Shown: positions 6,871 to 38,160 of the stretch, piece after piece
Layout: every line of letters begins with the position of its first letter
How positions within the stretch are numbered: the stretch's first letter is position 1
Assembly: GCF_025263685.1 (NCBI RefSeq)
Contig: NZ_CP092109.1
Span: forward strand, 1,861,001 to 1,925,000
Source of the DNA: Geoalkalibacter halelectricus
Lineage (GTDB): Bacteria; Desulfobacterota; Desulfuromonadia; Desulfuromonadales; Geoalkalibacteraceae
Length of the DNA: 64,000 bases
Reading direction: 5' to 3'
Translations under genes and position numbers: made by a program
The notes under the pieces: model-generated
Told to the model about the DNA's origin: nothing
What the model saw: only the letters and a program-made list of their open reading frames with translations
Database searches by the model: none

Positions 6871-6878
6871 TATCCGCG

Positions 6879-7265
6879 TCACTTCTTTTTCTTTTTGCCC
6901 AGGGTGAAGGGATGTGCCTGGCGGCTGATGATGAAGTCGGCGAAGATTTTGATCCAGATCATTGATCCTGCCACGGCGCTCCAGACCTCGAACTCGTGAA
7001 AAGGGCCGATGCTGATGCCGGTGGCGACCCACAGAGGAACCCCGAGGATAATCCACAGGGCGATAAAGCCGGCCAGTAAATTCAAGATTCCCGTCACCGG
7101 AGCCCACTTCCTCGGATTGGGCGGTGATTGGCCGCGCTTGAGGGCGACCTCGGAATAGTCGCGCTTGACGAAGATTCTCCAGGCGCGCCGCAGCCAGAAA
7201 AAGGCCATGGGAAACAGCGCCAGAAACAAAATCCAGATTAGAACAATCCCCGCATCAAATGCCAT
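6879..7265 (-). CDS. Small membrane protein of unknown function
   Basis: 128 residues with three hydrophobic segments (near residues 5-25, 58-80 and 92-112), a basic loop (RRAWRIFVKRD) after the first, and a lysine tail ending LGKKKKK. Predicted inner-membrane protein. ATG at 7265 has AGGAGAG 7 nt upstream. It is encoded on the same strand as the symporter genes but beyond their terminator, so it is probably a separate unit. No family recognised. Confidence 0.7.
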   Translation of the reverse strand: MAFDAGIVLIWILFLALFPMAFFWLRRAWRIFVKRDYSEVALKRGQSPPNPRKWAPVTGILNLLAGFIALWIILGVPLWVATGISIGPFHEFEVWSAVAGSMIWIKIFADFIISRQAHPFTLGKKKKK

Positions 7266-7336
7266 TCTTTAACTCTCCTGATTGTCTTTGCTGTTCTTTT
7301 ACCTGACCCGCTGGAATCAATCAATAATATTTGTTG

Positions 7337-7367
7337 GAAAAAAACCCCGCCGGCAAAACCGGCGGGG
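7337..7367 (-). terminator. Terminator of the symporter operon
   Basis: Perfect 9-bp stem CCCCGCCGG/CCGGCGGGG (7345-7353 with 7359-7367) and, on the minus strand, a T-run opposite 7338-7344. A second hairpin, CTTAGCGC/GCGCTAAG, sits closer to the gene at 7381-7403. Confidence 0.9.
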
Positions 7368-7412
7368 TCGGGTGATCAGACTTAGCGCGTGATCAGCGCT
7401 AAGGCGCGGTGC

Positions 7413-9488: not shown

Positions 9489-10099
9489 GAAAGCCTCCTC
9501 TCTGTGTTGCAAAAATATTGATTGCCAGCGAAACCTTGACGTGAATCAAATCCCGTTGTTTCAGATTGACCTTGTTTTAGCTTGGTTTGTTTCCGCCCCC
9601 TTTCCAAAAGTGTGTTTTCACGTTGACAGATTCACCGGATCAAACCAGCACCGAAACCGCCCGACAGCTGGGGACTCAGCGCACCATTCCCTTCCCTGTC
9701 GGGAAGTTAATAAAATGCCATTTCAAAAATACCATAGAAAAAAACATCTGCAGCAACCGGGGGTCTGAAAAATGTGCCTGAAGTTTCATTTAGGTCTTTT
9801 TGTAGAACGATATTTTGAAACCCTAGGCGGAAACATATTCTAAAACGCCCCAAAACGTCAACAAAAAAATAAAACCATGTTTTTATTTTTTTAAATAATT
9901 TTGCAAGCCACCGAAAAATAACCAAAAAAACCTAATACCCTGTCGCACGTTGAAAATTATTTTTTTTGGAACCGACGTTTGTCCGGAATTTCTTGCGGGT
10001 TAGGGCAGGGGAATTGTTCCGAGAATCCATTGCATCTCGTTCCGAAAAAGGGAAAAATGGATGGCTTGTGCCTCTTGATATTTTTTCCGTGGGGTGGTC
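9489..10099. other. 611-nt AT-rich divergent intergenic region
   Basis: Separates the permease operon (minus) from the CBS-nucleotidyltransferase (plus). It is markedly AT-rich compared with the rest of the window, with several A/T tracts. A long A/T inverted repeat is seen at 9863-9892 (AAAAAAATAAAA, CCATG, TTTTTATTTTTTT), able to act as a bidirectional hairpin or protein-binding bent DNA. No good sigma-70 pair or correctly spaced sigma-54 site was found by eye; no gene is supported within it. Confidence 0.6.
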
Positions 10100-11557
10100 A
10101 TGTCGAACAATTCCATCGGCGAAGAAGGTTTTTTCTTCCTTCGTGCCGAAACTCTCTGCCGGGGCCCGGTTGTCACCTGCGAACCCGAGGCGACGGTCGT
10201 GGAGGTCGCCGTCAAGATGGGTGAGCATGGTCTGTCCGGTCTGGTCGTGACCGAGGGCGAGGCGCCGGTCGGCATCGTTTCCACCCGGGACCTTCGCGAT
10301 CTGATTGCACGGACCGGTGGTCAACTGGGGGATTGTCGGGCCAGGGAGATCATGGAGGCCGATCTGGTCACGGTTCGGCCCAGGGATTATCTCTATGATG
10401 TGCTGTTTAAAATGGCCAAGCACAGCATTCACCGCATCCTGGTCGTCGACGACCAGGGAAGGCTCTTCGGCATCATCACCGATACGGACCTGCTCAGCCT
10501 GCAAACCCGCAGTCCGCTCTACCTGACGCGCGAGATCGAATCCGCGACCTCCGTCGCGCAACTGCGGGGAATCAACCAGCGCATTCTTGAAACCATCGGC
10601 AGTGCCTCGCGCTGGGGCGCGGACACCAAAAGCCTGGTGCAGCTCATCTGTCACTTCAATGATGCCTTCACTCTGCGCGCTATTGCCCTGATGGAAGCGG
10701 AGGAAGGTATTCGACTTCCCGAGGGCGCCGCCTATCTGGTGCTCGGCAGCGAGGGGCGCGGCGAGCAGACCCTGCGCACCGATCAGGACAGCGCCATGGT
10801 TTACGCGGATGACTTCCCGCGCGACCGCATGCCGCAGCTTAGATCCTTTGCCGAGCGCCTGGTGGATGCCCTTGAGGAGGTCGGCATTCCCCGGTGCCCC
10901 GGAAACACCCTCGCCAGTAATCCCGAATGGTGCCACAGCCTCTCCGGATGGAGGCGCCGCCTGGAGCAGTGGATTTCCGAGCCGCAGCCTGAAAGCATGG
11001 TCAATTTCAGCATGTTTCAGGATTTTCGCGCTCTTCATGGCGATCCCCGCCTGGAGCAGGATCTGCACGACCACGTCTTTGCCTGCGTTCAGCGCAACGG
11101 TCTCTACCTTCCCTACATGGCGCGGCATATCGAGCGCTTCGGCGCGCCCCTCGGCATGTTCGGACGCATCCGCGTCGAGCGTCGCGGTGAGCACCGCGGC
11201 AGCGTCGACATCAAGAAATCGGGGAGTTTCGCCCTGACGGAGGGCGTAAGTCTGTTGGCGCTGGAGGTCGGGGTTTTCAGCGGCACGACCTGGGATAAGG
11301 TCGACCAACTCGCCAGGCGCGGAGTTGTCTCGGTCCGGGATGCGCAAATTCTCAGCGAATCCTTCACTTACTTGATGCGGCTGCGGCTCGAGAAGCAGTT
11401 GCGGGCCCTGGCCGAGGCTCGTGAGCCCGATAATCATATCAACCCCGAGTTGATGAGCCCCAGGGATCGCGAGCGCCTGAGAGACGCCCTGAGAGGCGTC
11501 AATCTGCTGATGAAGATCCTCAGGGTTCGCTATAAGCTCGATTCCATCGCGCGCTAG
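10100..11557 (+). CDS. CBS-domain DUF294 nucleotidyltransferase
   Basis: 485 residues. Two CBS domains fill residues about 15-135 (GLSGLVVTEGEAPVGIVSTRD, HRILVVDDQGRLFGIITDTD), which usually sense adenine nucleotides. Then comes a DUF294 nucleotidyltransferase domain with the catalytic signature GSEGRGEQTLRTDQDSAMVY (GlnD-like GSxGR...TDQD), and a DUF294 C-terminal substrate-binding domain to the end. In many proteobacteria this protein is encoded beside SSS acetate-type permeases and DUF4212 genes, suggesting energy- or nucleotide-dependent control of uptake. ATG 10100 is chosen; GTG 10094 is an alternative and the SD (GGGGTGG) is weak. Stops 38 nt from the convergent IclR gene. Confidence 0.88.
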   Translation: MSNNSIGEEGFFFLRAETLCRGPVVTCEPEATVVEVAVKMGEHGLSGLVVTEGEAPVGIVSTRDLRDLIARTGGQLGDCRAREIMEADLVTVRPRDYLYDVLFKMAKHSIHRILVVDDQGRLFGIITDTDLLSLQTRSPLYLTREIESATSVAQLRGINQRILETIGSASRWGADTKSLVQLICHFNDAFTLRAIALMEAEEGIRLPEGAAYLVLGSEGRGEQTLRTDQDSAMVYADDFPRDRMPQLRSFAERLVDALEEVGIPRCPGNTLASNPEWCHSLSGWRRRLEQWISEPQPESMVNFSMFQDFRALHGDPRLEQDLHDHVFACVQRNGLYLPYMARHIERFGAPLGMFGRIRVERRGEHRGSVDIKKSGSFALTEGVSLLALEVGVFSGTTWDKVDQLARRGVVSVRDAQILSESFTYLMRLRLEKQLRALAEAREPDNHINPELMSPRDRERLRDALRGVNLLMKILRVRYKLDSIAR

Positions 11558-14454: not shown

Positions 14455-17400
14455 ATGAGCGGATTTCATTTGTTCCTCAGCAACCGGCTGGAATTGCTGT
14501 TCGAGGAATTGGCCGAAGTGCTGAGTACCGCGCCCGCCGCGGTGCTGACGCCGGAGGTTATCCTGGTCCAGAGCCGCGGCATGCAGCGCTGGCTGTCCCT
14601 GCGGCTGGCCGAGCGCTTCGGTGCCTGGGCCAACGACCAAGGCAGCTTTCCCTTTCCCAACGCCTTCATGCGCCAGTGTTTTCGTGCCGTTCTGCCCGGC
14701 CTGCCGGACAAGTCCCGGTTCGAGCCCGCGCCCCTGACCTGGAGCATCCTCGCGTGTTTGCCCACCCTGCTCGCGCGCCCCGAATTCGCCCCGGTGCGCG
14801 CCTACCTCGGCGCCGCGCCCGACCCGCTGAAGTCTTATCAGTTTGCCCGACGGCTTGCTGATTTGTTCGACCAATACACGGTCTATCGCCCCGATCTGCT
14901 GCGCACCTGGGATCGGGGTCTGGAAACCGCCGACCAGGCCTGGCAGGCCCACTTGTGGCGCGAGCTGAACGCGGCTGCGGATGGGCCGCACAAGGCGGCC
15001 ATGCTGCACGATTTTCTCGCGGCGGCCCGATCCTCCCCGGAAGCCGCCGCGCACTTGCCCCACCGCGTGGCGGTCTTCGGCATTCCCGCCATGCCGCCCA
15101 TGCACCTGGCGGTCCTCGAAGCGCTCGCGCTGCATCTCGACGTCAATCTGTTTCTACTCAACCCCTCGCGCGAATACTGGGGCGACATCATCTCGGCGCG
15201 CGAAGCCGCCAAGCGTAAGAAGCAACTCAGCTTCGATGATCTTCTCGACACCGACCTGTACCTGGGCAGCGGCCATCCCCTGCTCGCTTCCCTGGGGGGA
15301 CTGGGGCGGGATTTCTTCCGGCTGCTCCTCGACCGGGTGGAATTTGAGGAACATCTGTGTTTCAGCGATCCCCAGGATGACACCCTGCTGCACTGCCTGC
15401 AAAGCGACATCCTGCTGTTGCGTCACCGACCCGATGGCAATGCGCCGGTCCTGAACCTGGACCCCGGGGACAACTCGGTGCAGGTGCACTCCTGCCATGG
15501 TCCCTTGCGCGAGATGGAAGTTCTACAGGATCAACTGCTTGCCCTCTTTGAGCGCCACCCCGACCTGATGCCCAACGACGTGTTGGTCATGCTTCCCGAC
15601 GTCGAAGCCTACGCTCCATATATTGGTGCCGTTTTCGGGGCCGAGAACCAAGGGGTGCCGCGCATTGCCTTTCGCATCGCCGACCGCGGATTGCGCGCCC
15701 AGAGCCCGGTGGTGGAAACCTTCCTCAAGCTGCCGGCCCTGGTCGGCAGCCGGTTCGGCGTCTCCCAGGTTCTCGACATTCTGGAAAATCCCGCGGTTTA
15801 CCGGCGCTTTGGCTTGTCCCTTGCCGATCTGGACCAAATTCGGGACTGGATCCGCCAGACCCGCATCCGCTGGGGCATCGACGGCGCCGACCGGCAGCGC
15901 CAAGATCTGCCCGCCTACGCGGAGAGCACCTGGCGCGCCGGACTCGAACGGCTATTGCTCGGCTATGCCCTGCCCGAGGACGCCGGTCTGTTCGCCGAGA
16001 TCTTTCCCCACGCCGTGGCGACTGGGGACCAGGCGCGCGTGCTGGGCTGTTTCATGGATTTCACCACGGCGCTTTTCGATTTGGCCGCCGGCCTGGCGGC
16101 GCCGCGCTCGCCCCAGGATTGGGCGCGGTGTTTCGAGGACGTTCTGGAGGGGTTTTTCACCGGCGATCAGGGCGATCCGGCGTTCGAGGATCTTCGCCAG
16201 GCCTTGCGCCAATTTCGCGAAACCGCGCGGTTGGCCGAATTCGACGCGCCTTTGCCCCTGGAGGTGGCGCGCGCTCATCTCAGCGCACTGCTGGAAGAGC
16301 GCGGCACCGCCCAAGGTTTTCTCGCCGGGGGCGTGACCTTTTGCGCCCTGCTGCCCATGCGCAGCATTCCTTTTCGCGTGATCGTGCTCTCCGGTATGAA
16401 CGACGGCGCTTTTCCCCGCGCCGAGCGCCCGCCCGGATTCGATCTCATGGCCCACAATCCCCAGCCGGGCGACCGCTCCCTGCGCCGCGAGGATCGCTAC
16501 CTGTTCCTGGAGGCCCTGGTCTCGGCGCGTGACTATTTCATCCTCACCTACGTCGGGCAAAACGCCCGCGACAACAGCACTGCGCCGCCTTCGGTGCTGG
16601 TGAGCGAATTGCTCGACTGCATCGCCGCCGGCTTTCTGGTGCCCGAGGGCCAGGTGTTCGATCACCTGGTGCGCAGGCATCACCTGCAGGCCTTTCACCC
16701 GGCGTACTTCGGCGAGGATCAACGCCTGTTCAGCTATTCGCGCGCCAACCGTGATGCTCTGGCGGCGCGCCTAGGCGCCACGCACTGCGCCGCGGTTTTC
16801 TCACCGGTCGCTCTGCCGGCGCCTGAGGATGAAATCACCGAGGTTGAAGTACAGGCCCTGATCCGTTTTGTGCGCCATCCGCAGCGGTATTTTCTCGAAG
16901 AGCGGCTCGGCATGTGCCTGCCCGAGCAGGAAGAGGCTCTGGAAGAGCGCGAAACTCTGGTCCTGGAGGGGCTCGAGCGCTATCAATTGATGATGGCGCT
17001 CATCGATGAACACCTCAGCGGCCGCGCCGACCCCGGTGCCTACCATCGCTACCGCGCCCGTGCCCTGTTGCCGCCCGGGACGCCCGGCGAGGCTGCCTTC
17101 GCCGAAGCCGACCGCGCGGCGCGCGCCTTCGTCGAACGCCTCAGGCCCTGGCGCGCTGCCGCCGCGTCGTTCTTGGAGGTGGATGTGGATCTCGGTGCCG
17201 CCCGGTTGTGCGGACGTCTCGTCCTGGGCGGCGTCAACGGCCCCTTGCGCTACCGTTACGCGCGTCTCAAGGCCCGCGATCGGCTCGCCGCCTGGATCGC
17301 TCATCTGGCGGTGTGCGCGCAGCGCGGCGAGACTTGCCACACCTTGCTCATCGGCAGCGAAGAGATCTGCCGTTTCGCGGGAATCGCAGCGGATCAGGCG

Positions 17401-25966: not shown

Positions 25967-26386
25967 ATGGAATTAAGGAGTATCGAGTGGGGCGACGATA
26001 GTGCCGAAAGAGACGTTGATCTTCTTTCCTATTTTATCGATACTGAAAGCTATGATCGCTTGGCTCGCAAGTCGAAGACGATCGTAATTGGACGTAAAGG
26101 ATCTGGGAAGAGCGCGTTAAGGAAAAAGTTGGAAAATGACTTCTCTAAAGATTCGGATACGCACGTTATTAACATATCTCCAAAGTATTCCTCAATCCGA
26201 AATATTTTGAATGAAAAGTCTCTTTCTGAAGGGTTTGGTGAAGAAATATTCTTTCAACATAGTTGGCTAAGGCAAATGATGCTTGATAGCCTTTGCTTGG
26301 TTGGCCATCGTACCAAGGGTAAGTATGCATCGGAAAGTCTAGAGTTTGCCAGGCAAATATCGCGAGATCTTAATAGAACTTCCTGA
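25967..26386 (+). pseudogene. Truncated P-loop ATPase (remnant, probably horizontally acquired)
   Basis: 139 codons that encode only the N-terminal part of a P-loop ATPase. YFIDTESYDRLARKSKTIVI is followed by the Walker A motif GRKGSGKSALRKKL (residues about 42-55). No Walker B or later domain follows; relatives with this N-terminus run to several hundred residues. The sequence is clearly more AT-rich than its neighbours, a sign of transfer. The open frame stops 4 nt from the convergent fragment at 26390, suggesting that an insertion or deletion removed the remainder. ATPases of this kind are common in defence islands. Start ATG 25967 follows a GATGAGGAGACATA-type SD. Confidence 0.6.
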
Positions 26387-26530: not shown

Positions 26531-26604
26531 CAAACATCAACCCCAACCCCGGGGGGTCAATTCTGAATGTCGCCGGGGGGTCAGTTTCTGATGTCGCTTG
26601 ACAC
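26531..26604 (-). mobile_element. Probable insertion-sequence end (IS21-like terminal repeats)
   Basis: On the minus strand the segment starts TGTCAAGCGACATCAGAAAC immediately after an intact half CRISPR repeat. It then shows two spaced copies of a GACATTCAGAATTGACCCCCC-like unit (the plus strand has GGGGGGTCAATTCTGAATGTCG and GGGGGGTCAGTTTCTGATGTCG). Multiple internal terminal repeats of this type occur at IS21-family ends. No transposase gene is present, so this is a remnant. The family call is from memory of such ends, without a database search. Confidence 0.45.
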
Positions 26605-29415
26605 CCGCGCAGGGGGCGACAAAATCGCGGTCGCTGTAATGCCAAATGGAGAGTGGTTTCAATCCACGCCCCCGCGCAGGGGGCGACGCGGGTAGGCCAT
26701 GGGCTGGTCCCGGTCAACACGTTTCAATCCACGCCCCCGCGCAGGGGGCGACATTCGAGGCAAATAAAAAGCGGGACACGTGACCTTGTTTCAATCCACG
26801 CCCCCGCGCAGGGGGCGACAAGATTCCAGATGCCGCGCTGTCTCGCGTACCGGGGTTTCAATCCACGCCCCCGCGCAGGGGGCGACGGTCATGTGCGGAG
26901 GAATACGGCGCAGGGGTCGGTTTCAATCCACGCCCCCGCGCAGGGGGCGACGTTTTCGTATCCGTATACAATCACTGTAGTTTCTCGTTTCAATCCACGC
27001 CCCCGCGCAGGGGGCGACCATGAAGGCCCCGTCGCGCTCGATAAGGTAGTGCGTTTCAATCCACGCCCCCGCGCAGGGGGCGACCGGAGGGTATCGGCCC
27101 CGATGAGCGCATCGCATGCGCGTTTCAATCCACGCCCCCGCGCAGGGGGCGACAATTCCCCTGTCGGCGAGTGATCGCAGTTTGCGCCCGTTTCAATCCA
27201 CGCCCCCGCGCAGGGGGCGACGCCAGGATCGCATGACACGTGCACTGCGAGTCTCAGTTTCAATCCACGCCCCCGCGCAGGGGGCGACGGTCCGCGACTA
27301 GATTTATTGTACCTACATGCATGTTTCAATCCACGCCCCCGCGCAGGGGGCGACAGCCCGTCAATCATGGCAGCACCTCGAATTCCAGGTTTCAATCCAC
27401 GCCCCCGCGCAGGGGGCGACTCTCAACGCTCGACACAAGTAAGGGATTGTCTGCTGTTTCAATCCACGCCCCCGCGCAGGGGGCGACGCCAAACATCAAT
27501 TGACACACTGGTGCAAGCGGTGTTTCAATCCACGCCCCCGCGCAGGGGGCGACGGACAAAAACGCTTTCATGCTCACAGCTCCATCAGTTTCAATCCACG
27601 CCCCCGCGCAGGGGGCGACAGGCCCCAACGGAGACGATGGGACGCGACGAAATTGTTTCAATCCACGCCCCCGCGCAGGGGGCGACTATCTACACTATTA
27701 GCTAAAATAATCGATGAGAAGTTTCAATCCACGCCCCCGCGCAGGGGGCGACCTACCGCGATCACTCATCATTTCCCAGGCCCATTGTTTCAATCCACGC
27801 CCCCGCGCAGGGGGCGACCCCGGTGCGCGTGATCGTGCCCGGAAGAATTGGGGTTTCAATCCACGCCCCCGCGCAGGGGGCGACAGGCGTTGGTTGGGGC
27901 ATTCGGCCAGCACGTCTTGTTTCAATCCACGCCCCCGCGCAGGGGGCGACACGATTTGCTCGGATCTCCGGACGGTGGCCTGGGTTTCAATCCACGCCCC
28001 CGCGCAGGGGGCGACCAGAAAAACCGGGATCGGGGGTACTATGACGATTGTTTCAATCCACGCCCCCGCGCAGGGGGCGACAGGTAAACAAGATGGAAAA
28101 GCAGACTGACGAAAGTTTCAATCCACGCCCCCGCGCAGGGGGCGACGTGGCGATCCATGCAGGACGTGAGACGTGGGAGGTTTCAATCCACGCCCCCGCG
28201 CAGGGGGCGACCACCCCGGAATTCGCGGCAGAGATGCGCGAGGTCGGTTTCAATCCACGCCCCCGCGCAGGGGGCGACTAACTTACAAAACAGTGGCGAA
28301 CTGCGTCTGATTGTTTCAATCCACGCCCCCGCGCAGGGGGCGACGTTTTCCCTGCGCATCAACAACGGTCCAACAGATGTTTCAATCCACGCCCCCGCGC
28401 AGGGGGCGACCTCTTTCTCGGCCCGGGCACGGGCCATGCGCTCATTGTTTCAATCCACGCCCCCGCGCAGGGGGCGACGCGCTATTGCTGCAAGGGCTGC
28501 GCTGCGCTGCACGTGTTTCAATCCACGCCCCCGCGCAGGGGGCGACGATGTTTTGCCGACCACAAAAGACACGCGAATCGTCGTTTCAATCCACGCCCCC
28601 GCGCAGGGGGCGACACGCGCTCAACGCCAAGTTCCTGAACGAGTACTTGTTTCAATCCACGCCCCCGCGCAGGGGGCGACGTCCCGAATGCAAGTTTCGT
28701 CAATTCGCCGCGGTGTTTCAATCCACGCCCCCGCGCAGGGGGCGACCCGCACAGGCTTCGGTTTCGGCTTAGCATGTAAAAGTTTCAATCCACGCCCCCG
28801 CGCAGGGGGCGACCGCTGTCCGTCTCCTCGGTCGCAGTACATCACTGCGTTTCAATCCACGCCCCCGCGCAGGGGGCGACGTCGATCCCCTTGATTCGCT
28901 CGATCTCGCTGGAGCCGTTTCAATCCACGCCCCCGCGCAGGGGGCGACCCACATCGCTGAAAACAGGCTGACGATCTGGGAAGTTTCAATCCACGCCCCC
29001 GCGCAGGGGGCGACAGGGAAGCGCCGGGGTGCTTCGGGAAAGGGAAAGGGTTTCAATCCACGCCCCCGCGCAGGGGGCGACGGCCGGGGCCGGTGAAGAC
29101 CCAGATGTATTGCTCGTTTCAATCCACGCCCCCGCGCAGGGGGCGACGGCCACCAACAACGTGGCCCTGGGCAAGGACCACGTGTTTCAATCCACGCCCC
29201 CGCGCAGGGGGCGACCACACCCCGCCCGACTTAAACCGCCGCCCATTGCTGTTTCAATCCACGCCCCCGCGCAGGGGGCGACGGTCGGATGTCGATAAAT
29301 CGCAGATCTTCCTTGCGGTTTCAATCCACGCCCCCGCGCAGGGGGCGACAGGTGGAGCGTGAGCGGCTGCTGGACGGCAACTGGTTTCAATCCACGCCCC
29401 CGCGCAGGGGGCGAC
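26605..29415 (-). CRISPR. Type I-C CRISPR array, 42 repeats plus one truncated repeat
   Basis: 42 repeats of 32 bp, identical by eye, the first at 26656-26687 and the last at 29384-29415. They have a period of 65-69 bp, giving 41 spacers of 33-37 nt. In the transcribed (minus) sense each repeat begins GTCGCCCCC, forms a 7-bp CGCCCCC/GGGGGCG stem over a TGCGC loop and ends GTGGATTGAAAC, the handle typical of subtype I-C. The leader and cas2 lie at the 29.4-kb end, so the newest spacers are there. At the distal end a half repeat (17 leader-side bases intact, ending 26620) precedes a 35-nt spacer; its other half is replaced by an IS-like end. Open frames crossing the array on both strands are artefacts of the repeat period. 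Confidence 0.98.
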
Positions 29416-29580: not shown

Positions 29581-29871
29581 CTAAAGAATCAATGGGCCTT
29601 CCTGATCAATCGCCTCCCTTGCACCGATATGCTCGACTTTTCTTCGCCACCCCGTCCCCAGAAAATAAAACCGCAAACTGTCCTGTGATTCGTCGATGAC
29701 ATCAATCAACTGCTGCCGCATGGCAACCCATTGCCCCGGGTCGACAATGCACTCAAAAACCGAATACTGCACCCGCTGACCGTGATTCGTGCAGATTTTT
29801 GCTACTCGGCGCAGACGTTTCGCACCACCAGGGTCAGACGTCGCCACATCGTAACTGACAAGCACCATCAT
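29581..29871 (-). CDS. cas2: CRISPR-associated endoribonuclease Cas2
   Basis: 96 residues. Core partner of Cas1 in spacer integration. The ferredoxin-like fold starts MMVLVSYDVATSDPGGAKRL with the conserved Asp after SY, then CTNHGQRVQYSVFECIVDP and the C-terminal strand region. The start lies 4 nt after the cas1 stop, so it is the last gene of the operon, followed by the leader and array. Confidence 0.97.
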   Translation of the reverse strand: MMVLVSYDVATSDPGGAKRLRRVAKICTNHGQRVQYSVFECIVDPGQWVAMRQQLIDVIDESQDSLRFYFLGTGWRRKVEHIGAREAIDQEGPLIL

Positions 29872-29875
29872 GCCG

Positions 29876-30907
29876 TCACCGCCAGATAAACGGAGGATAT
29901 TCGTCCAGATCGCCGCGAAGGTAGCGGCTCAATAGCTGCGCCTGGGCAAACATCAGCATCCCCAAAGGGATTTTCTCCTTGAGAAAAGGATGTTCGATCT
30001 CGACCTGTTTGCGCTTCTGGTACTCGGTGAGCAGAACCTTGCGGCTGTCGTCTTCCATCACCACGGCTCCGGATTCCAAGGTCCGGAAACCTTTTTTCCG
30101 CATCTGGCCGAGGTTGATCAGTGAAAGAGCCAGCCGGTCCGCCAGCACCGGCCGAAATTCCTCCATCAAATCCAGGGCCAAGCTCAGGCGCCCGGGCCGG
30201 TCACGATGCAAAAAACCGACTGCCGGATCAAGCCCCACGGTTTCCAACGCCGAGCGGGCATCGTGATAAAGCAGCGAGTAGAGAAACGACAGCAGGCAGT
30301 TGACCCGATCCAGGGGAGGACGGCGGTTACGCCCGGCAAATACAAAGTCATCTTTCTGGGATACGATCAAATCGTTGAAATGACCGAAGTAGTCATTCGC
30401 CGCCCGACCTTCGATGCCCCGAATGTTATCGAGGGATTCCTCCTGGAGCAAGTTGCGGGCGACCTTGGCGAACAAGGCGACCTTTTTGGGCATCTCCGGT
30501 GCGTTGATCTTTTCGCCGTGATCGCGCAGTGCCCGGCTCATGACCGTGCGACAGTTCACGACTTTTCCCAGAACAAACAAACGCGCCAGGCGTGCCGAAG
30601 CAACCGGGTCATCGGCTTGGCGATACTGCGCGCGGCGCAGCAGTACATTTCCCGCCACCGGCCCCTGCACGCGGGCCAGAAACCGCCCATGGGCGGTCAT
30701 GAAGCTGACGCTGACATCATTTTCGGCGCAATGCCCAAGCAGAAAGGGGCTGCATGTCACCTGACCGAAGCAGACGATGGAACTCAGCGTGTGAATCGGC
30801 AGCCGCAACCTGGTTTCACGCTCGATGTTGACGGCGACCGTTTCTCCCTCCTTATTCAGATAAGCCCCTTGCGTCGTTACGTAGAGCGTGTTGAGCATCT
30901 TTCTCAT
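29876..30907 (-). CDS. cas1: CRISPR-associated integrase Cas1 (subtype I-C)
   Basis: 343 residues. Integrates new spacers at the leader-repeat junction with Cas2. MLNTLYVTTQGAYLNKEGET at the N-terminus, the active-site regions NIRGIEGRAANDYFGHF (Glu), GFLHRDRPGRLSLALDLMEE (His, Asp) and the C-terminal LSRYLRGDLDEYPPFIWR are typical of I-C Cas1. The start MRKMLNTL at 30907 is chosen; earlier in-frame codons would overlap cas4 deeply. It already overlaps the cas4 3' end by 56 nt, so cas4 and cas1 are separate but tightly linked, not fused as in some Geobacter. Confidence 0.96.
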   Translation of the reverse strand: MRKMLNTLYVTTQGAYLNKEGETVAVNIERETRLRLPIHTLSSIVCFGQVTCSPFLLGHCAENDVSVSFMTAHGRFLARVQGPVAGNVLLRRAQYRQADDPVASARLARLFVLGKVVNCRTVMSRALRDHGEKINAPEMPKKVALFAKVARNLLQEESLDNIRGIEGRAANDYFGHFNDLIVSQKDDFVFAGRNRRPPLDRVNCLLSFLYSLLYHDARSALETVGLDPAVGFLHRDRPGRLSLALDLMEEFRPVLADRLALSLINLGQMRKKGFRTLESGAVVMEDDSRKVLLTEYQKRKQVEIEHPFLKEKIPLGMLMFAQAQLLSRYLRGDLDEYPPFIWR

Positions 30908-31529
30908 GGTCCGCCCCCCTGAGCATTCCCGCCAGATATTTTCTGACCGATCGACCGGTCGTGCAGCTTTTCGGCAGGCATGCGGCAATAAGTGAACACT
31001 GATCGCACTTCGCGGAATAAACCGCTTTGGGCGTGATGCCCGTACGGAAGAGATGGTGCACCTGCGCAACAGTTTCTTCCGTCAGCCTTCTGAGCTCATC
31101 GTTAAACGCGACGCTGCGCCGACGTTTATTCTGGCCGTAAAAAAGAGCGCCGTCGTCAATCTTTTTCCCCAGCATCTCCTCAAGACACAGAGCTTGCGCG
31201 CAAAGCTGCACCTCGTCGCAACGATTGCTCTTGGGCCTGCCGCGCTTGTATTCGACGGGACAAATCCTGCCGTCGGCATGAAATTCCACGACGTCGGCCT
31301 GTCCGCTCAACCCGAGCCGGGCCGAACGAACGTGAAGGGTGCGAACAATTCGTACACCGCTCTTCACCTCCCTTTCACGACTATCGACGCGCTCATGCAG
31401 AATGCGCCCTTCGGCGGTGTAACGATTTTCCGTCCAGATCTGCTCAAGATGAATCAGGGCGCACTGGCGCGGACAAAACAGATAATGCTGCAACGCCGAA
31501 AGCATGACGTAATCGGACTCGGCATACAT
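30852..31529 (-). CDS. cas4: CRISPR-associated exonuclease Cas4
   Basis: 225 residues. A RecB-like nuclease with a 4Fe-4S cluster that trims prespacers and selects the PAM with Cas1-Cas2. The N-terminal Cys is in HYLFCPRQCALIHLEQ, the nuclease motifs are GRILHERVD, LSGQADVVEF, PVEYKRGRPK (catalytic D/E-x-K region) and QLCAQALCLEE, and the C-terminal Cys cluster is KCDQCSLIAACLP. ATG 31529 is chosen for TTGGAG 8 nt upstream. Overlaps cas1 by 56 nt and starts 57 nt after the HEAT/nuclease gene. Confidence 0.95.
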   Translation of the reverse strand: MYAESDYVMLSALQHYLFCPRQCALIHLEQIWTENRYTAEGRILHERVDSREREVKSGVRIVRTLHVRSARLGLSGQADVVEFHADGRICPVEYKRGRPKSNRCDEVQLCAQALCLEEMLGKKIDDGALFYGQNKRRRSVAFNDELRRLTEETVAQVHHLFRTGITPKAVYSAKCDQCSLIAACLPKSCTTGRSVRKYLAGMLRGADHEKDAQHALRNDARGLSE

Positions 31530-31586
31530 AAACAAGCTCCAAATCTCACTAGCCGTTTCTACGCGGCGCAGCACAGGCGCAGCGAG

Positions 31587-32453
31587 TCATTGATACTTGG
31601 CCAGCTTGCCCAGCAGCGTTTCGCGCATACGCGGCTTGTCACCGGGATAAAGAGAAACCAGCCGTTTGCCCTGCTGCTGGTAAAGCTGCTGCTTCTTGAG
31701 CATACCGATCTTATAGTCGGCGGTGTCCATGCCCCAGTACTCGATATAGACATCGAATTCCGGCAGATAGAAATCGGGGCGGATGGCATAGCCGTCAAGA
31801 ATGCGGAAGCGCTCGTCGTAGCGATAACGAATCCTTTCCGCGTGCAACGCCTCGCAAATGAGCCGCTCACCGTCGGACTGCACCCAGGTTCCGTCCTTGG
31901 CGCGAATGTTTTTCTGCAACTGTACCTTGGTTTCGAAGTTGCGCCGTTCGAGAAAAACCTCATCGAAGCAATAATTGCAGAACGGGCGCTGAAACGCCTT
32001 TTGGCTGCGAGTGAACTCATCGGCTTCGAGCTTGACCCCGCAACGTTGGCAGCAATGCTCGGCTTGCCTCTCTGCGATGCGACTCGCCTCTTCAATCACT
32101 TCGATGGCCGATTTGGCGCAGTTGTTGTTGTAGTCTTTTTCAACAGGGCTGATGGCCATGTCACGCAAATCGGCCAGGGCGCATTTTGCATGGGTGCCGT
32201 AGGCGCTCAGGGCCTTGGCCGCATATTGGCGCACCTGGGGAAAGTCATCCTGTAATAGCGGCTGCAAGGCGGCAACCGCCGCAGCGGCGTCGGCCAAACC
32301 CGCCAACTTGCCGATGGCCGACGCCGCCAACCGCCGCACATTGGCAACGGGCAAGCGGGTCAATTCAACCAATTCCATCAAACCTCGCGGATCGCCCGAA
32401 TTGCCCAGGGCAACCGCACGCTCACGAAATTTCTTTTCAAGCTTCTGATCCAT
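31587..32453 (-). CDS. HEAT-repeat, zinc-finger, PD-(D/E)XK-like nuclease inserted in the cas operon
   Basis: 288 residues, not a known core cas gene. Residues 1-125 are HEAT-like helical repeats (NVRRLAASAIGKLA, QVRQYAAKALSAYG). Residues 135-162 form a CxxC-x20-CxxC zinc ribbon (CQRCGVKLEADEF, RPFCNYC). Residues 190-270 look like a restriction-endonuclease fold: SDGERLICEAL (E196), IRPDFYLPEF (D227) and VYIEYWGMD (E238), followed by a lysine-rich helix and KRLVSLYPGD, as in Vsr/DUF559-like nucleases. ATG 32453 has GGAGGGGG 7 nt upstream. Same strand as, and between, cas7 and cas4, with short gaps (65 and 57 nt), so co-expressed. Function is inferred: an accessory nuclease for interference or adaptation, or an unrelated cargo gene. 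Confidence 0.85.
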   Translation of the reverse strand: MDQKLEKKFRERAVALGNSGDPRGLMELVELTRLPVANVRRLAASAIGKLAGLADAAAAVAALQPLLQDDFPQVRQYAAKALSAYGTHAKCALADLRDMAISPVEKDYNNNCAKSAIEVIEEASRIAERQAEHCCQRCGVKLEADEFTRSQKAFQRPFCNYCFDEVFLERRNFETKVQLQKNIRAKDGTWVQSDGERLICEALHAERIRYRYDERFRILDGYAIRPDFYLPEFDVYIEYWGMDTADYKIGMLKKQQLYQQQGKRLVSLYPGDKPRMRETLLGKLAKYQ

Positions 32454-32474
32454 CTTCAATCCCCCTCCAAGGGT

Positions 32475-32518: not shown

Positions 32519-33379
32519 TTACAGTTTTTCGATGATTTCAACACCAGACGGAGCTGCGTCGATCCTTACGTCATAATCCTTGAAAGATCGTGCCGGACCT
32601 TCGGTGTGATTGTTGCGCCGAATTTCCACCAGATCGAAGAGCTTATGGGCCGGGGCATTGCCCATTTTCGAGTCATGCCTGAAAACAACGAGCTTGCGGC
32701 TGCTCATCAACCCGCGGGCCGCGGAGCGGTCATGCTCGAACATGTTGATGAGCGCCTCCCACAGAAGGTTCAGGTCGTCCTCGCTGAAGCCGGTCTTTTC
32801 GGCCAGGGGCGCCGACACGAAGCCCTGCGCGACATAGAGCCCGTAGGGCACGATATGTTTGCGGCCCATGGTGCGTTCTTTTTCAAGGTCTTTTTCATTG
32901 GTGACGGCCATGCGGGTGATGCTGATTTCCTGCGGCACGATGGGTTCAATGCTTTTGGCAAACGCCAATTGCACCGGACCACGCACCTGCCCACAATTCA
33001 CTTCGGTGGTCATGACCGCGCCAAAGGAGCGGATGTCGAAAAAGTTGGCGCACATCCAGCCGGTGACCTTTTGCGCGTCCTCGACCTTCTTCGGCAGCTT
33101 CTTGGCCTCCGGTTTCAGTTCGTAGGCCTTGTAGGCCAGTTCATTGGTCTGGTTGAGAACCGCCTTTTCCTGCACATAGATATTGAACCCTTCCACGCCC
33201 CCCCTGGCCAGGGCGACATGGTTGCGGATCTTGCGCTTGAGACAGACGTCCGTGACCAGGCCATGGCCCGTCTCGGGGTCGATGCGCGGCATGTTACCCG
33301 CATCGGGATCACCGTTGGGGTTGCCGTTTTCCACGTCGAAAAGCAGCACGAATTCATAGCGGTTGGCGATAGCGGTCAT
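32519..33379 (-). CDS. cas7c: Cascade backbone protein Cas7c (Csd2)
   Basis: 286 residues. RAMP protein that polymerises along the crRNA in the type I-C effector. Seen: [20 protein letters not shown] (Csd2/Csh2 hallmark near the N-terminus), [13 protein letters not shown], and [23 protein letters not shown] 33379 has CAGGAGGGATGATCC upstream. It starts 3 nt after the cas8c stop. Confidence 0.96.
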
Positions 33380-33382
33380 GGA

Positions 33383-33757
33383 TCATCCCTCCTGATTCTT
33401 TTTGGTGAAAAAGTCTTTGCGCTGATGGTAGTAGCCGATCATGAACTGCCCCTGCTCCGTTGCCGGAAGGGTTCTGGGAAAGGCGCTGATTTCCGCCATG
33501 ATGTCCTGGGTCAGGATCTCCAGATGGTGCGCCCTGCCCTTTTTTTCCGGATCCTTGCGCAACTTGGAGACATGATTGGCCGCGTTTTTCAGCAACAGGT
33601 GGAAGACCTGGCCCGGCGTGGCCGAGGCCGAGGCGAGATAGCGGTCCTTGATGGTGGCGTTGGACCCCGGGACGGCTTCCTCCTGGGCTTTTTCCAGGAC
33701 GGCGAACAGCCGCCCCAGAAGATAGGGCAGATCTTTTTTCTGGATGTCGAGCGACAC
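33383..33757 (-). CDS. cas11c: Predicted internal Cas11c small subunit
   Basis: In type I-C systems the small subunit is known to be translated from an internal start in cas8c. Here an in-frame GTG at 33757 (start SLDIQKKDLPYLLGRLFAVL) is preceded by GGAGG at 33763-33767, 5 nt away, which is an excellent ribosome-binding site within coding sequence. The product would be 124 residues, rich in helices, close to the size reported for Cas11c (about 120). ATG 33769 is a less well placed alternative. Confidence 0.7.
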   Translation of the reverse strand: MSLDIQKKDLPYLLGRLFAVLEKAQEEAVPGSNATIKDRYLASASATPGQVFHLLLKNAANHVSKLRKDPEKKGRAHHLEILTQDIMAEISAFPRTLPATEQGQFMIGYYHQRKDFFTKKNQEG

Positions 33758-35134
33758 GGGCACCTCCATTTGATGGTTACGCATGAGAAAGGCCTTGAGC
33801 AAGGCGGCACGGAAATAGGTGACGACATGTTCGGCGCGGATGCGCCCAAGAACGGCGGCCAAGAGATTTTGCGGATAGCGGCAGCCGGTCAGCATGGCCT
33901 TGGCCATGGCGCCGGCGAGAACCGCCGGGATGTTTTCGTTCTTTCCCAAAGGGGCGATCTGGCAGAGCAACCGCCACAGAGGCGGAAACTCAGGCTCGTT
34001 GTCGAACTGGCGAACCATGTCCAACTGCTGGAAATGTCTGCCGATGCGTTCCAGAAAGGAGCCCAGGCTGTTGGTTTCCCAAAAGCGAATGGACAGCCGC
34101 GCGGCATTGGGAGCCAAGGCAAGAAGGTAGAACTGCACGGATTCGTCGAGATCCGGCAGGATGTCCGCCGCCCGGCGCCCATCGCGAATGGCGTGGAGCA
34201 GGCTGCTGATTTTCCCGGCGGTGTGCGGATCGTCCTCAACACCGGCGGTGTCGACGGCTGCATCGGAGGGCTCGATGAGGTCGGCGAGAAATTCTTCCGC
34301 CGGACTGGCCCGCTGCGCCCAGAAAACCAGAGTGGTGTCGCCGATGTGAACCTTCCGGCGACTTTTGCCGGCCAGCAGGCCATTGAGCGCCGTGGTGTAG
34401 GCAAAGGCCGAATCTTCAGAAACCGAGGCCTTGTCCTGGGCGTAGGAAACGAACGCCGGCTTGTTGAACGAGACGATATAGCCGCCCGAGGTCTGCCCGC
34501 CCCTTACTCCCTTGATCGGCGTGTGCACCGGAGCGAGGGGCGCATCCTTGGCGCCGGAAATCAGGCATTGAACCAGCGCGGCACTCTCCTTGTCCCGATT
34601 GAACCGAGCCCAGGCCTTTTGGACGGGGGGACGGTTGTGGATGAACCCAGGGACGCCGTCGAGGCGAAATACTAGGTTTGCGTTGCAAACCTCTTCCCAG
34701 GGCGCAAATTGACCGATGACATCCTCGGCGCGGCCGCGATCCCAATCCCGCAGGAATTTGACGACCGCTGAAAACCCGGGATCGTCGATCTCCGCGCCGA
34801 CATGTTGCAAAAAATCCTGAAAGGCGGCGAATCGCTCCTGGTTCTTTTCCGTCGCTCCTTCAGCATCCGCCCCCAGCACATAGCTCGATTTGTCCCAAAG
34901 AAAATTGGACTTGACCCCGGACGTGCGCGTCACGGCCGCCGGAACCGGCAACTTTCTGGCCCGCGCTTTACCGTTTTCGATTTCCCGCAGATCTTCAACA
35001 TTTTGCAATACCCCATTCACATCGAGAACCAGCGCGAAGGAGATACTCTCAATGCTGGTTCCGAAAGGCGGCATACCCGAATCGGGATTCTCGGCCATGC
35101 GCTCGTAATAGCCATTCAGGGCTTGCAGAATCAT
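33383..35134 (-). CDS. cas8c: Cascade large subunit Cas8c (Csd1)
   Basis: 583 residues. The I-C large subunit recognises the PAM and recruits Cas3. The N-terminal MILQALNGYYERMAENPDSG and the stretch GVKSNFLWDKSSYVLGAD are typical of Csd1. The C-terminal 124 residues are also predicted to be made separately as Cas11c. ATG 35134 overlaps the cas5c stop (ATGA), indicating coupling. Confidence 0.95.
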   Translation of the reverse strand: MILQALNGYYERMAENPDSGMPPFGTSIESISFALVLDVNGVLQNVEDLREIENGKARARKLPVPAAVTRTSGVKSNFLWDKSSYVLGADAEGATEKNQERFAAFQDFLQHVGAEIDDPGFSAVVKFLRDWDRGRAEDVIGQFAPWEEVCNANLVFRLDGVPGFIHNRPPVQKAWARFNRDKESAALVQCLISGAKDAPLAPVHTPIKGVRGGQTSGGYIVSFNKPAFVSYAQDKASVSEDSAFAYTTALNGLLAGKSRRKVHIGDTTLVFWAQRASPAEEFLADLIEPSDAAVDTAGVEDDPHTAGKISSLLHAIRDGRRAADILPDLDESVQFYLLALAPNAARLSIRFWETNSLGSFLERIGRHFQQLDMVRQFDNEPEFPPLWRLLCQIAPLGKNENIPAVLAGAMAKAMLTGCRYPQNLLAAVLGRIRAEHVVTYFRAALLKAFLMRNHQMEVPVSLDIQKKDLPYLLGRLFAVLEKAQEEAVPGSNATIKDRYLASASATPGQVFHLLLKNAANHVSKLRKDPEKKGRAHHLEILTQDIMAEISAFPRTLPATEQGQFMIGYYHQRKDFFTKKNQEG

Positions 35135-35796
35135 GACCGCACCTCCGACGCCAAGGGTGAGGGCGGGCTGATGATGCCGTTCTCCATGACAGCCCGGAAA
35201 AACAGGGGCGTCATCTGGTTGTCGAAATCCAGGTCCAGCAGCATGTAGCCGAGTTCCTTGGATTGTCCGGCATAGGGCGAAGAAGGGATTTCCCCTTCGA
35301 GCAGTTCGAAATAGGCGGGGAATTCACGGCAGCCGAGGCAGGGTTGGTGAAAAAACTGGCCGGCCGCGGCCCGGCGGTTGAAGATGGCCAGGTGCTTTCC
35401 CTCATTGTCGTCAGGGCCGGCCTTGTCGGTGAGTTGAAAATGCGCCTCGATCACATATTCGACATCGCGCAACAGCGTCGCGGCGCGCTGCTGGCGATTG
35501 TCGCCGTCATCGACAAGAAAATAGAGGCGCTTGTTCTCGCGCATGGCGGTGGCAGGATTGGGTTTGGGGATTTTCGAGCTGACCTCGTTACGCCGCAGGT
35601 TGTCGAACTTGATGGGCCGCAGCACATGGATGCGATCCACCACCCAGCGGATGGCCGGCTTCCAGTGAATCGCCTCCAAAATGCCCCGCGCCGCCGAAGG
35701 GGTCATCACATCATAGGAGACGCGCTCCACCTTCATTTCCGGCCGCGTGAAACAGGCATAATCCCCCCAGACTCTCAACTTGACGCCATAGGCCAT
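35131..35796 (-). CDS. cas5c: Cas5c, crRNA-processing endoribonuclease of type I-C
   Basis: 221 residues. Type I-C lacks Cas6; Cas5c cuts the repeat hairpin and caps the crRNA 5' handle. The protein begins MAYGVKLRVWGDYACFTRPE and has YDVMTPSAARGILEAIHWKP and DRIHVLRPIKFDNLRRNEV, all family hallmarks. ATG 35796 is chosen for AAAGGAG 5 nt upstream; the frame extends to 35820 without an SD. Overlaps cas8c by 4 nt. Confidence 0.96.
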   Translation of the reverse strand: MAYGVKLRVWGDYACFTRPEMKVERVSYDVMTPSAARGILEAIHWKPAIRWVVDRIHVLRPIKFDNLRRNEVSSKIPKPNPATAMRENKRLYFLVDDGDNRQQRAATLLRDVEYVIEAHFQLTDKAGPDDNEGKHLAIFNRRAAAGQFFHQPCLGCREFPAYFELLEGEIPSSPYAGQSKELGYMLLDLDFDNQMTPLFFRAVMENGIISPPSPLASEVRS

Positions 35797-35832
35797 AGCT
35801 TCTCCTTTCTGCCTTGCCAAGGGTTCAGAAAA

Positions 35833-38031
35833 TCAAATGCACAAATCCTCCGGATTCCAAACCTCACCGCCTTCCGCGCACAGCCCCACCTCGGGGCGAT
35901 AGGCCGCCTCGTTGCACAGAAGGGGAAATTCACCATGAATCAGTTCCAAGGCGCCTGCGGCACCCAGCGCCGCGTATTCCCTGGAGCGCACGCCGACCGT
36001 GTATTGCTGCAATTTGCGCAGGGTGGTGCGCGGGAACTGGGTGTAGCGCAGTTCCTGCACCAGCGCCCGGGCTTGCGGCTCAATGGGGATGATCACGCCG
36101 ATGGTTTCGTCCTCGATGAAGCGAAACAGGCGCGCCGTCTCCCTGAACGGCCAAATGAGATCCTGGTCCAACTTGGGGTTGAGCAAGCTCAGTATCTGCT
36201 TCTTATCCAAATCTTCCGCGTCGTACAGCAGATGGAAGTAGCGACGCATGGCCTCAAGCCCCAAGGGATCGGCGTCCGGCAAAGCGCGCAGGGTTTCGCC
36301 GGCACGCGAAGCGCAACGCCTGACCCAGGGCATGCGCGGCGGGTTCAGCGCCTCGAACACGACCACCCTGCCCTTGTGCGACAGGCGGCCCTCACGGTTG
36401 CAACGCCCGGCCGCCTGGGCGATGGAATCCAACCCAGCCATGGCGCGATAAACAACGGGGAAATCCAAATCGACACCGGCCTCGACCAGAGAGGTCGAAA
36501 TCACCCGGCAGGGCGGTTTCTCCTTGAGCCGGGCACGGATTTCGTCGAGCACTCGCCGCCGATGAACGGGGTACATGTTGGTCGACAGATGGTACAAACC
36601 TTCCGTCTCGCCCAGGGCCTGCCGAGCTTTCTCGAACAGCGCCCGGGCATGCGCCCTGGTGGAGACGATGCACAGCACCTGCAGTTCGCCTACCAGCTGT
36701 GCGGTCAGATCCTCATCGCAGAGCTTGCCGACAAACCGCACCGCGGTGCGTTGCAGGCCTTGGTAGAGGCGCTGGGGATCATCCATGATTTCTTGAACCT
36801 GCGGCAGCGCCATGCGCAAACTGCTTTGATCGTCCAGCGCCGGTTGGGTCGCGGTGCAGAGCACCACGGTGCAGCCATAACGCTCGACCAATTCACGCAG
36901 GGCGGCGAGGCAGGCTTCCAGATACTCGGTGGGAATCGCCTGAGCCTCATCGAGCACGATGACGCTGCCGGCGATGTTGTGCAGCTTGCGGCAACGCGAT
37001 GTCTTGTTGCTGAACAGAGATTCGAAAAACTGCACGTTGGTGGTGACGACGACGGGCGCATCCCAGTTCTCGGCGGCCAATCCGCGCCGCCGGTGGTAGG
37101 CCTCGTCCTCGGCATCTTCGCTCTCTTTGTAGTTGCAATGGTGCTCCAGAACGCTGTCTTCACCGAGGGCCTTCTGGAATTCCCGGGCATTTTGTTCAAT
37201 GATGGAGGTAAAGGGAATGGCGTAGATGACCCGCCGCAGGCCATGGGCCACCGCATGGTCGAGGGCAAAGGCCAGGGACGAAAAAGTTTTTCCGCCCCCG
37301 GTAGGCACGGTGAGAGAGAAGAATCCGCGCGGCAAAGGTGCTTTTTCTCGGCACTGGGCAAGAATGGCCTGGCGCAGGGTGTTGACGGGGGTCGGCGGAG
37401 CCGAGCGGGCTTTTTCCAGAAGAAATTCGTTGAGCCTTTGTTGCAGGCTGCCGAGTAAAACGGCGCCGTCGGGTTGCGTCCGCAGCCGGGCCTTTTCAGG
37501 GGTGCAGAAGGCTTCGGTATCGAGAAAATCAGCATCCACCAGACAGGAAAAAACCATCCGGGTAAAAAAGGCCAGGCTGAACGCCGTTCGATCCTTGGGC
37601 AACTTGAAAGGCGGCGACAACTCCCCGGGAAATTCGATTCCAGGCAGCAAGTCCACATCCGGAGGAATCTTGCCGTTCTTCAGGCGGAAATGCAGCTCTC
37701 CTTCCTGAACCCCGCCATCGGGCAACCCGCCGTGATGGCCGACAATCACATAGGAAATGAGCAGCCCGAGGCGCCCCAGACGATCCCGCGCCAAACGCGC
37801 GCCGAAAGTCGAATGATCCACCCTGGCCGGACTGCCTTCGAGTCGGGCTGTGAACGCCTGCGTCGCCTTGCCGGCGTCGTGCAGCAATCCGGCGCAACGC
37901 CCCCAGCTTCCCGCCCCGAAAACCTCGGCAAACTCCTCGGCGCGTCGGGCTACGTTGTTCAAATGCTCAAGAAGAGGCTGCCATCCGGACTTGTCCGCGC
38001 TTTCACTGGAATGAGCATAAAAATCAAACAT
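35833..38031 (-). CDS. cas3: Cas3 nuclease-helicase (HD plus SF2)
   Basis: 732 residues. Recruited by Cascade to nick and processively degrade target DNA. HD nuclease: EHLNNVARRAEEFAEVF, GLLHDAGKATQAF, DHSTFGARLA. Helicase: TVPTGGGKTFSSLAFALD (Walker A), VIVLDEAQAIPTEYLEAC (DEAQ box), LCTATQPAL (motif III), STSLVEAGVDLDFPVVYRA and AQAAGRCNREG (motif VI). ATG 38031 is chosen for GGGAGGG 8 nt upstream. First gene of the cas operon; 36 nt separate it from cas5c. Confidence 0.97.
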   Translation of the reverse strand: MFDFYAHSSESADKSGWQPLLEHLNNVARRAEEFAEVFGAGSWGRCAGLLHDAGKATQAFTARLEGSPARVDHSTFGARLARDRLGRLGLLISYVIVGHHGGLPDGGVQEGELHFRLKNGKIPPDVDLLPGIEFPGELSPPFKLPKDRTAFSLAFFTRMVFSCLVDADFLDTEAFCTPEKARLRTQPDGAVLLGSLQQRLNEFLLEKARSAPPTPVNTLRQAILAQCREKAPLPRGFFSLTVPTGGGKTFSSLAFALDHAVAHGLRRVIYAIPFTSIIEQNAREFQKALGEDSVLEHHCNYKESEDAEDEAYHRRRGLAAENWDAPVVVTTNVQFFESLFSNKTSRCRKLHNIAGSVIVLDEAQAIPTEYLEACLAALRELVERYGCTVVLCTATQPALDDQSSLRMALPQVQEIMDDPQRLYQGLQRTAVRFVGKLCDEDLTAQLVGELQVLCIVSTRAHARALFEKARQALGETEGLYHLSTNMYPVHRRRVLDEIRARLKEKPPCRVISTSLVEAGVDLDFPVVYRAMAGLDSIAQAAGRCNREGRLSHKGRVVVFEALNPPRMPWVRRCASRAGETLRALPDADPLGLEAMRRYFHLLYDAEDLDKKQILSLLNPKLDQDLIWPFRETARLFRFIEDETIGVIIPIEPQARALVQELRYTQFPRTTLRKLQQYTVGVRSREYAALGAAGALELIHGEFPLLCNEAAYRPEVGLCAEGGEVWNPEDLCI

Positions 38032-38160
38032 ATCGGTTCCCTCCCAACCAGATCCTAGCATATCACATTCTAATTGCCATCGAGACAGAATACGTCAAAT
38101 CACAATATCAGCAGTCACCGACCTCGCAAGAAAAGCCTCGCCCGCGCCTGGGGGGGACGG
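38032..38160 (-). promoter_or_regulatory. cas operon promoter region with CRISPR-repeat-like motif
   Basis: Minus-strand TTGCGA (38124-38129) and TATTGT (38102-38107), 16 nt apart, are the best promoter pair. A second -35-like TTGACG lies in the 14-bp border repeat. Just upstream, 38130-38158 reads GTCCCCCCCAGGCGCGGGCG, resembling the first part of the CRISPR repeat with one indel. Confidence 0.45.
38087..38100. repeat. 14-bp direct repeat, right border of CRISPR island
   Basis: AGAATACGTCAAAT, identical to 25588-25601. On the minus strand it lies at the probable transcription start of the cas operon. Confidence 0.6.

Follow-up and report, generated by a model that had tools for sequence, protein, structure and literature searches.

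The question raised by this locus is what a 288-residue protein, encoded in the middle of a type I-C cas operon, does there, and whether it serves the CRISPR system or only travels with it. The window (the whole stretch of DNA that we analysed, 64,000 nucleotides of Geoalkalibacter halelectricus) holds a complete type I-C operon, for which the PADLOC models give the order Cas3c, Cas5c, Cas8c, Cas7c, the gene in question, Cas4c, Cas1c, Cas2c. Throughout the text we refer to this gene and its product as HCP, for HEAT, CxxC zinc motif and PD-(D/E)XK. The original prediction had placed HCP between cas7 and cas4, on the same strand and with a strong Shine-Dalgarno sequence of its own, and the open reading frame (ATG at 32453, stop at 31589-31587, on the minus strand like the operon), the PADLOC order and the sequence before the ATG agree with it on all these points (Table 1).

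Table 1. Features of HCP and of its operon in the window; domain boundaries are given with the residue numbers of HCP.
Feature	Position	Strand	Basis
HCP gene, 288 aa	31587..32453	-	ORF; PADLOC PDLC01150 E=9.6e-181 over 1-288
Shine-Dalgarno GGAGGGGG	32461..32468	-	strong; 7 nt 5' of HCP ATG
HEAT-repeat solenoid, residues 3-130	32064..32447	-	Pfam HEAT_2 1.6e-9; AlphaFold helices; alphaRep/HEAT structure matches
Zinc-ribbon-like segment, residues 133-162, C135/C138/C159/C162	31968..32057	-	cysteines invariant, 46 homologues
Predicted PD-(D/E)XK-type nuclease domain, residues 188-288	31590..31892	-	invariant residues; predicted fold
Nuclease-domain residues E196; D227; E238; also K254	31866-31868; 31773-31775; 31740-31742	-	
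Flanking-element half TGACTCGCTGCGCCTGTGCTGCGCCGCGTAG	31559..31589	-	begins at HCP stop codon
Degenerate CRISPR-repeat-like sequence GTCGCCCCCCC...GGGGGATTGAA	32455..32492	-	between cas7 and HCP
cas8, cas5, cas3 (I-C)	33383..38061	-	PADLOC: Cas8c 2e-166, Cas5c 3e-77, Cas3c 1e-228
cas7 (I-C)	32519..33379	-	PADLOC: Cas7c 2e-125
cas4	30852..31574	-	PADLOC: Cas4c 6e-91; start at 31529 likelier than GTG at 31574
cas1	29876..30907	-	PADLOC: Cas1c 8e-155
cas2	29581..29871	-	PADLOC: Cas2c 2e-42
CRISPR array, type I-C repeat, >40 repeats	26589..29415 (bounds approximate)	-	downstream of cas2

The repeat-like sequence that precedes HCP ends in GGATTGAA, as the array repeats do, and aligns to the array repeat with a score of 33, a value reached by ~2e-4 of random window stretches; it was not found upstream of HCP in the nearest relatives (L002, L003). 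These features hint, weakly, that it may be a relic of a CRISPR repeat. Just past the far end of the array, at 25967-26386, there is a short P-loop-type ORF of 139 aa that looks truncated.

HCP had been described as a protein that is not commonly listed among accessory Cas proteins; this did not hold, because the PADLOC-DB model HEAT_CxxC_PDDEXK matches the whole protein (residues 1-288 of 288), and the family is therefore already catalogued. A literature search, which did not cover the CRISPR-linkage survey of Shmakov et al. 2018, returned no paper describing it. As far as could be found, HCP is catalogued but functionally undescribed, and its spread across CRISPR subtypes, its copies without cas genes and its flanking element are new relative to the PADLOC entry, which only names the family.

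At the level of the protein, the HEAT-like repeats proposed from the sequence are confirmed by Pfam, in which they are the only match above the cut-off, and by the predicted helices; a Zn_ribbon_2 match is weak (0.0056) and falls below the cut-off. The CxxC-x20-CxxC motif is also present as described, and its four cysteines are invariant, together with E196, D227, E238 and K254, in 46 homologues with 38-89% identity to the window protein, in CRISPR-linked copies and in copies without cas genes alike. The RPDFYLP surroundings are also kept across these homologues, and E238 sits in Y-I-E-Y-W-G. The AlphaFold model calculated from the HCP alignment (mean pLDDT 89, pTM 0.52) begins with a HEAT solenoid, followed by a zinc-ribbon-like segment and then by a C-terminal domain whose elements stand in the order of PD-(D/E)XK enzymes. 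Folded alone (pLDDT 85, pTM 0.79), this domain is predicted to be alpha-beta-beta-beta-alpha-beta, with E196 in helix 194-205, D227 before strand 228-230 and E238 in strand 235-239; in the models, therefore, both the fold order and the location of acidic residues on the first helix and central strands correspond to a PD-(D/E)XK core. The part of the prediction that concerned the fold and the three acidic residues thus stands, but the canonical (D/E)xK lysine is missing, as E238-Y-W240 reads ExW; its place could be taken by the invariant K254 of the following helix, which would then be the pocket lysine that had been expected.

Comparisons with known structures point in the same direction with low scores: the nearest PDB folds to the nuclease domain are the catalytic domain of I-Bth0305I, archaeal Bax1, PvuRts1I and, lower, TnsA, all weak (best E 6e-3), and the best match in a PDB sequence search with the nuclease-domain profile is T7 endonuclease I (E=0.25). 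Similar domains are found inside UvrD-type helicases, and among the PADLOC candidates the C-terminal domain of HCP is homologous to PDC-S69 (E=4.5e-18) and PDC-S68 (7.9e-10). Altogether, the predicted fold and the conserved residues support a PD-(D/E)XK-type nuclease, and it is from them that we infer nuclease activity for HCP.

We have studied the distribution of HCP in a scan with one genome per species. Of the 75 loci recovered, 72 (L019-L090) are HCP proper; loci were typed with the Cas proteins of the window, with profiles built from the loci and with PADLOC. Forty of the 72 lie among type I cas genes (26 I-C, 11 I-G, 2 I-E, and one untyped type I locus in which HCP is beside cas3), and the position of HCP differs between subtypes. 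In the I-C loci it is nearly always between cas7 and the cas4-cas1-cas2 block, the gene that precedes it being cas3 in L055 and L056. In the I-G loci cas3 adjoins HCP in 8 of 11 cases, and no cas1 is seen in 8 of 11, within the DNA sampled around HCP and on contigs that are short. The two I-E loci are L031 and L047; in L031 HCP stands between cas8e (read from sequence) and cas11e. No cas genes are seen at the other 32 loci, some of which are on short contigs. The neighbours of these copies (20 genes examined) are mostly housekeeping genes, for example recJ, uvrA, trpA, carB and aconitase, with no common partner; polA, recognised by reading, is also found beside them. HCP occurs across a wide range of phyla. 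It does not appear to be plasmid or phage cargo, as no full-length match was found there and the viral scan yielded only distant nuclease-domain matches. In one locus, L039, two tandem copies (10001-10861 and 15062-15886; 65% and 55% identical to that of the window) are separated by a subtilase-like gene.

In the order to which the window belongs, HCP is present in 6 of 19 genomes that carry cas8c and in none of 79 that do not (Fisher p=2.6e-5), and its positions coincide with those of cas8c; in a sample of Verrucomicrobiota it is present in 39 of 241 genomes, with about ten copies within 7 kb of cas1. Thus, other I-C loci do show HCP between cas7 and cas4, the recurrence that the original prediction had named as support, and the association with I-C is beyond chance. 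HCP is genuinely linked to type I CRISPR, though not to it alone: the linkage extends beyond I-C to I-G and I-E, and almost half of the loci (32/72) have no visible cas genes, so that HCP is not found only with CRISPR. A core Cas protein of I-C would be present in most loci of that type, but 13 of the 19 cas8c genomes lack HCP; it is an optional accessory common to three type I subtypes, and neither a core nor an exclusive Cas protein.

The history of the gene is consistent with this picture. In a tree built by a quick method, and containing some long branches, I-C, I-E and no-cas copies are intermixed, the starred branches alone forcing at least 7 changes, while those from I-G come close to forming a single group; one MAG holds an I-C copy (L053) and an I-E copy (L047) that are sisters with 85% identity. 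Identity of HCP to the window protein does not track that of the cas genes (87% for HCP vs 48% for Cas7 in L019; 73% vs 84% in L032), which indicates that HCP has moved relative to them. Strong purifying selection acts on CRISPR-linked and no-cas copies alike (omega 0.05-0.10 for pairs of either kind), and in most pairs dS is close to 1 or higher; HCP is therefore an old, functional gene in both settings. In the HCP-bearing loci Cas1, Cas4 and the Cas3 HD domain have their catalytic-type residues conserved; HCP is thus an addition, and the idea that it replaces a broken Cas nuclease can be ruled out.

HCP is not the only occupant of its site. I-C loci without HCP have either an empty junction (L134, L138, L139) or other cargo, and BRO, RhuM/Fic, IVP-like, DUF559 and VapBC genes occur at the cas7-cas4 junction of I-C loci with or without HCP, a variety that fits plain hitch-hiking. 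Cargo named by eye at cas7-cas4 or cas4-cas1 junctions (L137, L140-L144, L019, L021, L027, L062) comprises DUF559, BRO-like, RhuM/Fic-like, four-helix IVP-like, VapBC-like and MNT-like nucleotidyltransferase genes. In L056 a 128-bp duplicate of the cas4 start (6743-6871) lies directly in front of HCP (6879-7772), as if an incoming HCP-cas4 block had displaced an older cas4; direct or inverted repeats flank HCP in L025, L043, L063 and L079, those of L079 being inverted repeats of ~117 bp (9760-9878 and 10824-10943) around a no-cas copy. The HCP loci examined showed neither a transposase nor an exact insertion boundary or target duplication, and no common target was found among the sites.

The most unexpected part of the finding is a conserved structured element in the intergenic DNA directly upstream or downstream of many HCP copies. 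Within 350 bp of HCP, motifs such as GACGCnGTGGAG and GACTTGTTnCG are found 14-15 times, against a single occurrence in the rest of the sampled loci. In one large clade the element is directly 5' of the HCP start codon, in no-cas and in I-C/I-E copies; in I-G copies half-motifs tend to stand on both sides of HCP, in opposite orientation. The window has no match to the full element model, only the half-motif, which in its clade begins at the stop codon; this half-motif stands at the corresponding place in L002, L003, L019, L021, L023, L027, L036 and L046, and its pattern occurs once in the 4.1-Mb genome of the window, at HCP. The flanking-element motif was not found at the empty I-C junctions. 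A covariance model was built from 12 upstream elements and run over 76 sources (1.13 Mb): nearly all its matches adjoin HCP, and with E<0.01 all 27 do (25 element-bearing loci), of which 12 are the training sequences, which match by construction, and the others were not used in building the model. Most of the 27 end within ~35 nt of the HCP start, and L040, L068 and L076 have one downstream; examples are L032:9910-9987, L038:9909-9986, L041:6508-6585 and L040:10876-10952. When 17 whole genomes were scanned, every match below E=1e-9 stood beside HCP; those found elsewhere were weaker (E above 7e-3), as chance alone would produce.

The stems of the element are kept by paired changes, with 83% of cells paired vs at most 46% when the structure is slid, a difference that arises partly by construction, as the structures were derived from the alignment; there are 21 double-change cells (0/500 shuffles), stems 1 and 3 covary, and hairpin 3 does so in 3/4 pairs. 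The half-sites GACTTGTT and AACAAGTC are conserved by sequence. G-U and A-C mismatches are about equally common (23 vs 20), so that the element may act as RNA or as DNA; the covariation of stems 1 and 3 speaks for a possible RNA pseudoknot, but the sequence conservation of the half-sites and the types of mismatch do not. Other identities can be set aside: the element has no Rfam match, strong matches only beside HCP are not those of a genome-wide repeat family, and, given that attC core sites read RYYYAAC ... GTTRRRY, its half-sites run in the opposite order to those of an integron cassette. The element is most likely a binding, control or recognition site of HCP itself.

These results can be interpreted in several ways. 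The account to which we lean, tentatively, is that HCP is a DNA endonuclease module able to work on its own, which type I systems have taken up repeatedly, probably to assist interference. The HEAT solenoid and zinc motif would position it on DNA or on a partner, and the C-terminal domain (E196, D227, E238) would cut; gene and element would form a small unit that has repeatedly entered type I cas operons (I-C, I-G, I-E) or ordinary chromosomal sites. In a cas operon HCP would most likely serve interference as an optional helper, cutting or trimming single-stranded or branched DNA produced by Cascade-Cas3, and the trimmed DNA may also feed Cas4-Cas1-Cas2; we infer this substrate, the cooperation with Cas3 and the role of the element from context. 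A role in interference, and not in adaptation, is suggested by the frequent cas3 neighbour in I-G and by the place of HCP among the effector genes in I-E. One of the readings proposed at the outset, that HCP trims prespacers with Cas4-Cas1-Cas2, agrees with its location directly upstream of cas4 in I-C, but it is weakened by the same I-G and I-E arrangements, by the lack of cas1 in most I-G loci in the DNA sampled, by the presence of an intact Cas4 and by the no-cas copies, and we give it the least credence of all. As 32 of 72 loci are without visible cas genes, any function of HCP must make sense without CRISPR, and an autonomous endonuclease acting on DNA intermediates is the simplest account that fits both kinds of copies. 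The absence of HCP from most I-C genomes counts against it.

Alternatively, HCP may be a pure passenger: an independent nuclease of innate defence or DNA repair that does not interact with Cas proteins and sits at cas module junctions because these tolerate cargo. The no-cas copies beside polA, recJ, uvrA, trpA, carB and others, the other cargo at the same cas7-cas4 junction and the intermixing on the tree all favour it, as does the variable region downstream of polA, where HCP is present in 6 of 25 genomes. (This region, L146-L170 in a Pontiellaceae-type family, differs between the genomes and resembles a variable site; with such a frequency, and in one family, HCP is not a functional partner of polA as a rule.) We nevertheless consider a pure passenger somewhat unlikely, because 40 of 72 loci in three type I subtypes, at different positions, are far above the share of genomes taken up by cas loci, and because the link to cas8c in the order of the window is strict. 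A selfish, homing-like endonuclease, copied with its element into cut targets and with CRISPR operons as a favoured landing site, would explain the unit-specific element, the repeats around HCP in four loci, the duplicated cas4 start in L056, the wide phylum range and the best, though weak, fold match, which is to a homing-endonuclease domain; it is improbable, since there are no target-site duplications, defined ends, common target or plasmid or phage copies among those found, the empty I-C junctions have no motif, and the dS of most pairs, near or above 1, speaks for a long and stable residence of the gene. A further reading is decidedly unlikely, if less so: HCP and the element would be an undescribed mobile endonuclease unit that settles in type I CRISPR operons and in exchange brings them a second interference nuclease, with the element, as RNA or folded DNA, possibly acting as its guide or control.

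Much less is known of the accessory nucleases in type I CRISPR than of those in type III. Found in I-C, I-G and I-E loci and alone, under strong selection and with its own element, HCP offers a way to study how a stand-alone nuclease is recruited into CRISPR immunity, and lets one ask if Cas3 is the only nuclease that serves type I interference.

Among known systems, the PADLOC family HEAT_CxxC_PDDEXK has the same named domain order as HCP, with HEAT repeats, two CxxC and the conserved nuclease residues. The phage-defence candidates PDC-S69 and PDC-S68 resemble it in the C-terminal nuclease domain, whereas its N-terminal HEAT and zinc parts are unmatched in them. The Vsr, DUF559, I-Bth0305I and Bax1 nucleases share with HCP the order of the fold, the E...PD...E pattern and a structural similarity that scores weakly (best E 6e-3); HCP differs in having ExW in place of (D/E)xK and no known recognition sequence. 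Finally, HEARO and IscB-type units also consist of an endonuclease gene and an adjacent conserved structured element; the layout is shared with HCP, but the nuclease folds are unrelated, and the element of HCP, recognised in DNA sequence, belongs to no Rfam family.
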